DNA of 50,922 nucleotides, taken from assembly GCA_902578675.1 (NCBI GenBank), contig CACHDV010000002.1:1-50922 (forward strand). The letters are read 5' to 3'. This document shows positions 8,197 to 13,244 of this stretch, piece after piece; positions within the stretch are counted from its first letter, which is position 1, and the number at the start of each line of letters is the position of its first letter. The notes under the pieces were generated by a model. It was given only the letters and a program-made list of their open reading frames with translations, was not told where the DNA came from and made no database searches. This DNA is from an uncultured Alphaproteobacteria bacterium. GTDB taxonomy: Bacteria; Pseudomonadota; Alphaproteobacteria; Thalassobaculales; Thalassobaculaceae. Both the position numbers and the translations under genes were made by a program.

Positions 8197-8877
8197 ATGA
8201 CTGATAATAATGTTCAACTAACCTTTGATCTTGGTGATCAAGTATCCTTAAATAGAGATGACTTTATAGTGTCGAAATCAAATAAGGATGCTGTATCTTG
8301 GATAGATAGCTGGCCGAATTGGCCGGTAAATGTTCCCGGTTTAAATATTTTTGGAGCACCGTCATCAGGTAAATCACACCTGGCGAATATATGGAGATCA
8401 AAATCAAACGCCTTATCAATTGACAATCCATCATTGGACGTAATTGACGTGAGGGACTTATTGGTGGATCACAAAAATGTATTAATAGATAATTTCGATA
8501 ACTCATGGAAAGAAGAATCTTTATTACATCTATATAATTTAATCCAAGAACTTGGAGGGAGTTTCATCATAATAAGCGAGCTACCTGTGTCACAGATGGA
8601 TATTAAATTACGCGATTTAGCATCAAGAGTTTCGATTATGTCGACTGTGGAATTAAAGTTACCAGATGACGAAATTATAAAAGGCGTCATGAGAAAACTG
8701 TTTAAAGATCGTCAGATTGATGTTTCGAATGATGTGGTTAATTATCTTTGCAGAAGAATGGAGAGGTCGTTCAAAGAAATTGGGCGTCTAGTCGATAGAC
8801 TAGATAAAATTTCTCTTTCTGAAAAAAATACGATAAGTCTATCTTTAGCACGAAGAATATTGCAAGAAACTTGTTAA
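8197..8877 (+). CDS. hdaA: DnaA-regulatory inactivator HdaA-like AAA protein
   Basis: N-terminal QLTFDL clamp-binding motif; GAPSSGKSHLANIW Walker A; short DnaA-like AAA+ protein; syntenic with perM. Confidence 0.88.
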   Translation: MTDNNVQLTFDLGDQVSLNRDDFIVSKSNKDAVSWIDSWPNWPVNVPGLNIFGAPSSGKSHLANIWRSKSNALSIDNPSLDVIDVRDLLVDHKNVLIDNFDNSWKEESLLHLYNLIQELGGSFIIISELPVSQMDIKLRDLASRVSIMSTVELKLPDDEIIKGVMRKLFKDRQIDVSNDVVNYLCRRMERSFKEIGRLVDRLDKISLSEKNTISLSLARRILQETC

Positions 8878-8889
8878 AAAGGAACAAAA

Positions 8890-9669
8890 ATGGACTTAGG
8901 AATACAAGGTAAAAACGCACTTGTTTGCGCAGCTAGTAAAGGTCTGGGCAGAGGTTGCGCGGAAGCATTGGCAGAGGCGGGCGTTAACTTAACTATATGT
9001 GCGAGAACCGAAAAAGACATTGTTGATACAGCAAATGAGATCCGTTCAAAATATAAAGTGAGCGTAGAGAGCGTTGCTTGCGATATTACGACTAGTGAAG
9101 GTAGAGAAGCTGCTTTAAAAACTTCAGGACCTGTAGACATTCTTATTAATAATGCAGGTGGGCCACCACCCGGTCAGTTTAGAGACTGGACTAGAGAAGA
9201 CTGGATTAAAGCCGTAGATGCGAACATGCTGACAGCCATTGAGTTGATCAAGTCCACCGTTGATGAAATGATTTCAAGAAAGTTTGGTCGAATAATTAAC
9301 ATAACCTCTGCAGCAGTAAAATCGCCCATTTCAATACTCGGGCTGTCAAACGGAGCTAGAATGGGTTTGACAGGATTCTGCGCTGGAATAGCCAGAGATA
9401 CTGTAAGAGATGGCGTTACAATCAACGGGTTGCTACCTGGACCGTTTGAAACGGACAGACTTCTTGGCAATCTAAAAGTCAGAGCTGAAGCTGCGGGCGT
9501 GAGTGAAGAGGAAATGTATAAGACAGCCGCAGCAGAAAACCCCGCGGGTCGCTTCGGAAATTCTGAAGAGTTTGGTAAGACTTGTGCTTTTTTATGTAGT
9601 GCCCACGCAGGCTTCATCAACGGTCAAAATATCCTTATGGACGGTGGTGCCTTCAGGAGTTCTTTATGA
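8890..9669 (+). CDS. SDR-family oxidoreductase
   Basis: MDLGIQGKNALVCAASKGLGRGCAEALAEAG; NNAGGPPPG; GGAF C-terminus. Confidence 0.93.
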   Translation: MDLGIQGKNALVCAASKGLGRGCAEALAEAGVNLTICARTEKDIVDTANEIRSKYKVSVESVACDITTSEGREAALKTSGPVDILINNAGGPPPGQFRDWTREDWIKAVDANMLTAIELIKSTVDEMISRKFGRIINITSAAVKSPISILGLSNGARMGLTGFCAGIARDTVRDGVTINGLLPGPFETDRLLGNLKVRAEAAGVSEEEMYKTAAAENPAGRFGNSEEFGKTCAFLCSAHAGFINGQNILMDGGAFRSSL

Positions 9670-9809
9670 TTTTTGGAAAGGTTTTAATAACAGCATTAAA
9701 TTGAAACAGTGCTTAATGATGACAATTATAGATTAATGTTCAGACTGCGTAATAATTTGGTAAAGCCAGCTTAACAGCTAACATTTATAAACGCGTTGGG
9801 GAGCCATCG

Positions 9810-9975
9810 ATGAGTGAGAAACGAAGTATCGAGTTAGATGGGAAAACTTTCGTCGGTGGTCAAAAATATTTCAACCGTGAGCTCTCTTGGTTGTCCTTCA
9901 ATCGCCGAGTAGTAGAAGAAGCAAAAAATAGCCTCCATTATTGGTTTGTTGTTGGATTTTGCTATTAGTTTTTGA
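9810..9975 (+). pseudogene. ppk: Polyphosphate kinase remnant, N-terminal fragment
   Basis: ATG at 9810 after ggggag reads MSEKRSIELDGKTFVGGQKYFNRELSWLSFNRRVVEEAKNSLHYWFVVGFCY* (stop 9966-9968). NRELSWL.FN.RVLEEA is the PPK1 N-terminal signature; similarity then continues only with frameshifts and ends by about 9975. Confidence 0.88.
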
Positions 9976-9991
9976 CGTGGATTGAGGGGGC

Positions 9992-10141
9992 TTGGATAAA
10001 GTACAGATTAAAAGAGATAGAGATGCAATTTTAATGTTGTTTCCCAAGGAAATGAACATTAGTAAAGGACAAAATGTTAAAAGAAGAATAAAACGACTAG
10101 AGAGAATTTTTGGGGAACAAGTAACCCTTCAAGTTGTTTAA
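9992..10141 (+). pseudogene. ppx: Probable exopolyphosphatase C-terminal remnant
   Basis: Reads LDKVQIKRDRDAILMLFPKEMNISKGQNVKRRIKRLERIFGEQVTLQVV*; resembles alphaproteobacterial Ppx C-terminal tails and sits in the expected place before rnd. In-frame stop just upstream (9983-9985). Confidence 0.55.
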
Positions 10142-10157
10142 ATATTGAATAAATATA

Positions 10158-11309
10158 TTACGAATAGCGCGTAATTTTAACACTGTGGTTGTTAATGGAA
10201 AGACCAAGTTTTCCAGATTTCAAAAGCAATGCGTCGTTTCCAAAGATTTCTCGTCGCCAGCCTCTCAAAAAAGCAACATCGGCCATATCATTGGTGGCGA
10301 TTGCTTCAAGGTCTGCTGTTGCAGCAATCAATTTTTGAGCAACGTTATGTTCTTCAGCTTTCATTTTTAATAGCACCTTGAGAAGCTCAACGACAGCTGT
10401 CCCCTGATTATTTTTACGCTCCTTTTTTTCAATTTTAGGTGCTTGATCTATTGGTATTTGCTTTGCTTGAGAAATTGCTTCTAATATTTGAGCGCCGGAA
10501 TTACTTGTTGCAAAGTTGGCAGAAATACTTCTTACCTTTGCTAATTCTTCGGGTGTTGCAGGGGCCCTTGCGGCAATATCCAATATTACATCGTCGCGTA
10601 AGACACGATTTCTAGGGACGTCTCTGCGTTGTGCTTCGCGTTCTCGGAATGCTGCTATAGCCTGTACCAAGATTAGAAATTGTGGCCGGCCGCTCCTAAC
10701 TTTTAAACGAAGCCAAACCTTTTCTGGATCGATTATATAGGTTGTTCTACTAGTAACAAAATCCAATTCCTCAATTAACCAGCTTTCGCGCCCACTTTCC
10801 CTTAACTGCTTTTTTAATTTTTCATATATTTTACGTAAGTGCGTTACATCAGATAAAGCATATTTTAATTGAGAGTTCGATAGTGGTCGCTGGGACCAAT
10901 CGGTAAACCTTGACGATTTGTCTATCTCGATATCTAGTAATTGTTTGACTAATTTATCATAGCTTATGGCGTCACCATAACCGCATACCATTGCAGCGAT
11001 TTGGGTGTCAAATACAGGCTTAGGTGTGTTCTCGGTCAGGTGAAAAAATATTTCCATATCTTGCCTGCAAGCATGAAATACCTTTGTAATTGTTGGGTCG
11101 TTTAAAAGTTCAAAAACAGGTTCTAAATTTAGGTTGGGTGATATAGCGTCTATTGCTATAGCCTCCTTTTCACCTGAAATTTGAATAAGGCACAATTTCG
11201 GATAGTAGGTCTTCTCGCGCATAAACTCGGTATCTACGCTTAGATAGACTTCGTTTGAAAGTCTATCGCAAGCCGACGCAAGCGAGCGATTGTCAGTTAT
11301 TAAGGTCAT
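10158..11309 (-). CDS. rnd: Ribonuclease D
   Basis: DTEFMREKTYYPKLCLIQI DEDD exonuclease motif; HRDC-like region; MTLITDN start. Confidence 0.93.
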   Translation of the reverse strand: MTLITDNRSLASACDRLSNEVYLSVDTEFMREKTYYPKLCLIQISGEKEAIAIDAISPNLNLEPVFELLNDPTITKVFHACRQDMEIFFHLTENTPKPVFDTQIAAMVCGYGDAISYDKLVKQLLDIEIDKSSRFTDWSQRPLSNSQLKYALSDVTHLRKIYEKLKKQLRESGRESWLIEELDFVTSRTTYIIDPEKVWLRLKVRSGRPQFLILVQAIAAFREREAQRRDVPRNRVLRDDVILDIAARAPATPEELAKVRSISANFATSNSGAQILEAISQAKQIPIDQAPKIEKKERKNNQGTAVVELLKVLLKMKAEEHNVAQKLIAATADLEAIATNDMADVAFLRGWRREIFGNDALLLKSGKLGLSINNHSVKITRYS

Positions 11310-11363
11310 GCCATCCGTATACACGTAAAGAGATGCCGGGGAAACATATAGTGTGAAATTAAA

Positions 11364-12131
11364 TTACAATGTTGAAAGTCGCATCTGGCCGATCGTTGAA
11401 ACAATTTTTTTGTCAGTATTTTTTTTTAGTTTTTTATCATACATGCTTAAGTCAGCCAGATTGATTAGCTCTGTATAAGTTTCAGTCCCAGAGTAGTCAT
11501 AACGACCAATACTTGCGCCAACAACGATTTTTTGATTTTCCCACTCAAAGTGGAGGTACTTGATAGCGTTCTGTATTTCCTCAATTCTATTTGAAACCAT
11601 AGAAGATGGAAGGCCAGCTAAAATAATGGCAAATTCGTCGCCGCCCAAACGCCCGATAGTGTCGCTATCCCGAACCCTGAGTTTTAGGGAATTAGCAACT
11701 TTCTGAAGTAGTTTATCACCGGCAATATGTCCATACCGGTCATTAATGTTTTTAAACCTATCAAGATCTAACATCACTAAGGATCCACCAACTCCGCTGC
11801 GTTTTGATGAGGACAAAGTACGTTTTAATTGTGTTAGAAAACCACGCCTATTTAATAATTTCGTGAGTTCGTCAGTTATGGAGAGTTTCTCTAGTTGCTT
11901 AATTCTCTTTTGTTGTCTATCAATTCTCTTTTCGGCCTCTGTCATAGCAAGTAGGGCTAAGCTAAGAGCTTTCTCCACTTCAGTTATATCGTTAATTTGG
12001 GTGGGTGGTAGATTACCTCGCTCTATTAGACCTGAGAAATGAGAAATAATGTTGCCGAGTTTTACCTCGTCGATCGATATTTCTCGATCCGCTCTTTGGT
12101 TAACCGTAGCAATGGATTTGATTTCGCCCAT
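11364..12131 (-). CDS. GGDEF-domain diguanylate cyclase
   Basis: DELTKLLNRRGF; DLDRFKNINDRYGH; RDSDTIGRLGGDEFAIIL (intact active site with RxxD I-site). Confidence 0.93.
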   Translation of the reverse strand: MGEIKSIATVNQRADREISIDEVKLGNIISHFSGLIERGNLPPTQINDITEVEKALSLALLAMTEAEKRIDRQQKRIKQLEKLSITDELTKLLNRRGFLTQLKRTLSSSKRSGVGGSLVMLDLDRFKNINDRYGHIAGDKLLQKVANSLKLRVRDSDTIGRLGGDEFAIILAGLPSSMVSNRIEEIQNAIKYLHFEWENQKIVVGASIGRYDYSGTETYTELINLADLSMYDKKLKKNTDKKIVSTIGQMRLSTL

Positions 12132-12301
12132 TTTATTAATTACTCACGAATTGGTTTTTTTTAATGATAAGCAATAGTTGTGCCATATAAATTCACGCTA
12201 CCAATCTGTTTTAAAATGTGTGGCATTTAGAGACTTGTCTGCTAGCGCACATGCGCACCAGTAGCTTAAAGACCTGCTTCCTAACTATATTTGAGTTGCG
12301 G

Positions 12302-12343
12302 AAGCTCTATGCCAAAGAGTTTGGATATTTGACCATAGAGCTT
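12302..12343. repeat. Inverted repeat / strong predicted hairpin upstream of eipB
   Basis: AAGCTCTATG (12302-12311) ... CATAGAGCTT (12334-12343) perfect 10-bp arms; inner CAAA/TTTG extends the stem around an 11-nt loop. Confidence 0.75.
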
Positions 12344-12425
12344 GAACATGTTTGTTGTAGGGATTTTCAAATCAGATGAAAACGCTATGTATTAATGGCG
12401 AAATATCAATTAAAAGAGATGACAA

Positions 12426-13244
12426 ATGATAAGGTTTTTTTTACATAGTTTTGTTGCTACCGTTTTAACCGCAATGACTCTCTTTGCTAACGCTGAAGCC
12501 GTTAGCCAGAATTCTTTTGATCAGCTTCTACCCCATCGCGCTTTTTATAAAATGTCAACAAAGCAAACTGCTTCTAGCACTGCACTATTAAATGTCGAAG
12601 GAAGACTGAGTTTTGAAATGAGAGAATTGTGCGCGAGTTGGACTGTGGAACAGCGTTATGTGATGTTGTATCAAAGAGATGACGGTTCTGAAATACAGAT
12701 TAATACCTTTCTCAGTTCTTGGGAGGAAAAGACAGGAGAGCAATACAAGTTCTTTGTAAAACGTGATGAAAGTGACGGAGTGGAAAAAGTTATTGAAGGA
12801 AAAGCTATTGTTCCAAAAAATAAAGCCGGTGGTAATGTAAAGTTTTCACAACCGGAATCAAAGCAGATTACATTAAACAAGGGGGCTCTTTTTCCTGCGG
12901 GTCATACCGTGGCATTAATTAAGGCGGCAAAGAGCAAGAAAAAGATTGCTAGAAACTTTCTTTTTGACGGTACCGAAGTTGAACCAGCAGCTCTAGTCAA
13001 CAGTATTATTGGGGTTCAAAAAACATATCTAGGAGGTCTAGCTCAGCTAGAAAAAACTACTTATTGGCCAATTCGAATGGCTTTTTTTTCAGCTGAAAAA
13101 CAACAACTTGAACCTGACTATGAAATAACCATAAACCTGCATGATAATGGTGTCGTTAGTGGATTAATCCTTGATTATGGAGATTTAATTATTGATGTGG
13201 AACTCATGGAAATAGACTATCTTCAGCGGGCTTCATGCAACTGA
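12426..13244 (+). CDS. eipB: EipB-family (DUF1849) cell-envelope protein
   Basis: Signal peptide; LLPHRAFYKMSTKQTASS...NVEGRLSFEMRELCASWTVEQRYVMLYQRDDGSEI. Confidence 0.8.
   Translation: MIRFFLHSFVATVLTAMTLFANAEAVSQNSFDQLLPHRAFYKMSTKQTASSTALLNVEGRLSFEMRELCASWTVEQRYVMLYQRDDGSEIQINTFLSSWEEKTGEQYKFFVKRDESDGVEKVIEGKAIVPKNKAGGNVKFSQPESKQITLNKGALFPAGHTVALIKAAKSKKKIARNFLFDGTEVEPAALVNSIIGVQKTYLGGLAQLEKTTYWPIRMAFFSAEKQQLEPDYEITINLHDNGVVSGLILDYGDLIIDVELMEIDYLQRASCN

Follow-up and report, generated by a model that had tools for sequence, protein, structure and literature searches.

Remnants of a deleted ppk1-ppx locus between an SDR gene and rnd in an uncultured alphaproteobacterium

Introduction

What has become of ppk1 and ppx, the genes for synthesis and hydrolysis of polyphosphate, in an uncultured Thalassobaculaceae bacterium whose SDR-family oxidoreductase gene and rnd are separated by only 488 bases? 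The window analyzed here, a stretch of 50,922 nucleotides (contig CACHDV010000002.1 of assembly GCA_902578675.1, hereafter G000), carries neither gene intact at this place. A preliminary description of the DNA letters proposed that a single internal deletion of 3-3.5 kb had removed the pair from an hda-ppk-ppx-rnd order, which it regarded as common. This order is indeed common but not universal, as both ppk and ppx lie near rnd in 43 of the 86 alphaproteobacterial loci examined, a count in which loci cut by contig ends were scored as lacking the genes and a few genomes contribute two entries. Here, we locate the deletion by comparison with the congener G004, which has an intact ppk1-ppx locus, and consider whether its consequences extend beyond the locus.

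Results

The 5' part of ppk1 is still recognizable downstream of the SDR gene, which is itself 98-99% identical to its counterparts in G004 and in the nearest relative, G003. The remnant is matched above cut-off by Pfam PP_kinase_N (E 1.7e-7) and also by the NCBIfam PPK model (E 5.6e-9), and retains an RBS-like GGGGAG and the ATG at 9810, which are largely conserved in G004. When the full-length G004 PPK1 was searched against the G000 assembly, this stub was the sole match (residues 1-43, 74% identity, E 1.2e-13). About 675 of the 715 codons are gone, and PF02503 has no match in G000. With PPK1 N-terminal homology at the syntenic place and no catalytic domains, the remnant is a ppk1 pseudogene. 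The codons 3' of 9931 in the residual frame are ppx read out of frame, and because the join is out of frame, the ppk frame terminates at 9966-9968. The PPK1 fragment with its ribosome-binding site and start codon was thus rightly recognized in the preliminary description, but its extension to 9975 was not borne out, as homology ends at 9931.

The 3' part of ppx follows directly. Of the 49 residues encoded at its end, 38 are shared with the C-terminal 49 of G004 Ppx (E 9e-26 in the pairwise comparison), and a genome search with G004 Ppx recovered the same tail (E 8.5e-20). The 49-residue frame, which lies beyond the Ppx-GppA domain, matched no model in the HMM libraries; for a tail of this length, a hit to a curated model of the Ppx family is no prerequisite. 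Upstream of it, the ppx frame at the scar reads ASIIGLLLDFAISF followed by a stop, where the G004 equivalent reads ASMIGFLLDFAISFSGGLKGVLNKVQ. The lesions are a TGA at 9973-9975 and a net loss of 2 nt near 9984-9990, after which the 49-codon frame resumes. Syntenic Ppx C-terminal homology together with these inactivating lesions make this remnant, too, a pseudogene. The Ppx-like C-terminus that had been pointed out at 9992-10141 is thus genuine, whereas the breakpoint lies further upstream, where ppx homology starts at 9932; the supposed transition from ppk to ppx within about 25 nt is actually one piece of ppx containing a frameshift.

Table 1 Features of the scar and its surroundings. Positions refer to the window, except for the two intact G004 genes, which are given on locus L022.
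Feature	Position	Strand	Basis
hda (Hda-type DnaA regulator), intact left neighbor	8197..8877	+	Pfam Hda_lid E 1.5e-8
Intact SDR-family oxidoreductase gene immediately preceding the scar	8890..9669	+	Pfam adh_short_C2 E 2.1e-39
RBS-like GGGGAG once belonging to ppk	9798..9803	+	read directly; aligned with G004
ppk1 5' remnant, first 40 of 715 codons	9810..9931	+	HMM matches and G004 alignment
Residual 52-codon open frame, from ppk start into ppx out of frame	9810..9968	+	ORF list, frames read
Deletion junction in a short imperfect direct repeat; window reads GCAAAAAATAG	9921..9931	+	G004 comparison
ppx 3' remnant, last 70 codons, with TGA and frameshift	9932..10141	+	84.7% identical in DNA to the end of G004 ppx
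Final 49 ppx codons, still open	9992..10141	+	ORF list, G004 Ppx comparison
rnd (ribonuclease D), intact right neighbor	10158..11324	-	Pfam DNA_pol_A_exo1 E 7.4e-46, HRDC E 6.5e-15
G004 ppk (715 aa)	L022 8306-10453		PPK1 above NCBIfam cut-off
G004 ppx (497 aa)	L022 10480-11973		TIGR03706 E 1.8e-79, 267 bits (cut-off 307); Pfam Ppx-GppA above cut-off

Alignment to close relatives, as had been suggested, placed the breakpoint at 9931/9932. G004 shares 89% DNA identity with the window in the left flank and 86% in the right flank, and its genes are arranged in the order DUF2066-like gene, perM, hda, SDR, ppk, ppx, rnd (the names perM and DUF2066 being our presumed designations). Collinearity from the left ends at ppk codon 40 (window 9931, G004 8427) and resumes 70 codons before the end of ppx (window 9932, G004 11762). 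The window thus has the G004 arrangement minus one block of about 3,334 bp (L022 8428-11761), which agrees with the size originally proposed and comprises ppk from codon 41, the intergenic gap, and all of ppx except its last 70 codons. In the undeleted G004, a similar short sequence flanks the missing block, GCAAAAAATAG on the left and GCACAAAATGG on the right, of which the window keeps a single copy; only 20 of 5000 random 40-nt pairs aligned as well as the two 40-nt stretches. This sequence is a short imperfect direct repeat. Bacterial pseudogenes can arise by deletion between short direct repeats, and the arrangement supports, without proving, such an origin here. Two other configurations were considered. 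An in-frame ppk-ppx fusion is ruled out, since the ppx codon that begins at window 9931 is out of register with the ppk frame, and the scar region matched no phage records and therefore gives no sign of phage insertion.

The more distant G001 (~73% DNA identity) has the same intact order as G004. In G003, only 257 bp separate the SDR and rnd matches. What remains of the ppk start is some 84 bases in which CTG has replaced the ATG and a TGA occurs early; beyond them the sequence continues from the very end of ppx or just downstream of it, and the tail is entirely lost. In window terms the G003 gap runs from about 9893 to 10137 and encloses the G000 gap on both sides. The left-flank tree unites G000 and G003 as sisters (support 100/100, 94.2% identity), with G004 at 88.6-88.9% identity, while on the rnd side the three branch without resolution. 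Across window 11033-12530, which covers the 5' part of rnd and a GGDEF gene, identity between G000 and G003 falls from ~94% to 80-86%, the level of G004; this dip at 11.0-12.5 kb, which adjoins the scar, is probably a recombination tract and suggests exchange between lineages.

The proposed search for further ppk1, ppk2 or ppx genes yielded none beyond the stubs in the assemblies of G000 (62% complete) and G003 (59% complete), neither of which has a match to PF02503, PF03976, or PF02541. Full-length G004 queries retrieved only the two stubs from G000 and only the ppk stub from G003. G001 (93% complete) encodes one PPK1, one Ppx, and no PPK2, which indicates that the ppk-ppx locus is normally the only source, and losing it probably equals losing the pathway. 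The congener G002 carries a PPK1 that is only 38% identical to the G004 protein and is encoded at a different place (L023 2-1066, contig 120), beside an ABC-type permease gene and cut by the contig end; this gene may have been acquired horizontally, may be a replacement ppk, or may represent contamination.

Discussion

The comparison with G004 points to the following history. An ancestor of the species carried an ordinary ppk1-ppx pair flanked by the SDR gene and rnd. A single ~3.33-kb deletion, for which slippage or recombination at the short imperfect repeats is the most likely mechanism, then brought ppk codon 40 up against the final 70 ppx codons in a different frame. Neither gene is functional any longer, and the stubs have since decayed by point mutations and small indels. 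G003 lacks the pair too and would have inherited the same deletion, its scar eroded further. We assign this account as a whole a probability of roughly 0.93. As had been proposed in the preliminary description, both synthesis and hydrolysis of polyphosphate are lost at this locus, where only stubs remain of the pair that is intact in G004.

The draft genome is fragmented (109 contigs), and it is conceivable that an assembly or amplification chimera conceals intact genes in the cell. However, a false join would not create a stop and a frameshift within the ppx stub, and the TGA and 2-bp frameshift gained there argue against an artifact; moreover, the second assembly, G003, likewise lacks the genes and bears its own lesions. 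We consider a chimera extremely improbable. Scarcely more credible is that the 52-codon frame or the ppx tail survives as a small gene with a function. The intact start signals of the stub, the 78% identity of the open tail, and its pN/pS of 0.38 would fit such a gene, but this ratio derives from just 19 differences, the majority of them perhaps older than the deletion, and in G003 the start codon and the entire tail are gone. The values on the stubs are also too sparse to put a date on the deletion.

Whether G000 and G003 lost the pair in one event or in two independent deletions is a closer question. The end points differ between the two genomes, as do the short matches at the joins (GTTGT in G003), the rnd-region tree leaves the pairing of G000 with G003 unsettled next to the identity dip, and genes have been lost at the same locus in further lineages. 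Because the G003 gap contains that of G000 and the two are sisters on the left flank, though, one loss followed by a later deletion of ~240 bp suffices. The most economical reading is one shared deletion with subsequent erosion, and a pair of separate events is possible but rather unlikely.

For the organism as a whole, loss of ppk and ppx is likely. A second, unrecovered ppk is possible, since the assembly is 62% complete and G002 has a PPK1 elsewhere. That canonical polyphosphate synthesis and hydrolysis by Ppx disappeared entirely and in one step from the G000/G003 lineage is a tentative proposal, to which we give slightly less than even odds. If true, the intact sister species would offer a natural before-and-after comparison for the role of polyphosphate in such bacteria.

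Further Rhodospirillales have lost ppk, some of them also ppx, at the same locus. In L113 (7189-7256), SDR and rnd are 68 bases apart, and in L106 (7145-9200) ppx is retained and ppk absent; no PPK1 was found in either assembly. G015 and G023 (L139 and L140) are single-contig genomes of 1.5 Mb, 99% complete, in a genus-level group otherwise of ~5 Mb; both lack PPK1, PPK2, and Ppx entirely, and their rnd has no ppk or ppx nearby. The nearest named Rnd records, at 58-59% identity, belong to a SAR116-labelled single cell and a Rhodospirillaceae assembly, and a marine habitat of the organism would be only a guess. In the marine clade HIMB59, ppk-ppx content also varies between close relatives (PMC10734472), as here, but there the genes reside in a variable phosphate island, whereas here the hda-rnd neighborhood is conserved and the scar visible. 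The bacteria without any of the surveyed polyphosphate enzymes (14 species; PMC5932413) resemble the present case in the loss of these enzymes; those species are host-associated. Pseudogenes formed by deletion between short direct repeats share the internal deletion, the repeat at the join, and the stops and indels. Nothing essential sets the present scar apart from them, except that an opposing enzyme pair was lost in one event.

Gene loss through an internal deletion is known and ordinary; the scar is a well-documented example of it and no new kind of system. Its value lies in the detail: loss of the ppk1-ppx pair is mapped to within a handful of nucleotides, neighboring branches hold relatives that are still intact, and the Rhodospirillales have emptied this locus repeatedly. 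As synthesis and hydrolysis were lost together, at no point was either enzyme left without its counterpart. For these reasons, the scar and its relatives provide a usable comparison for when polyphosphate is dispensable.
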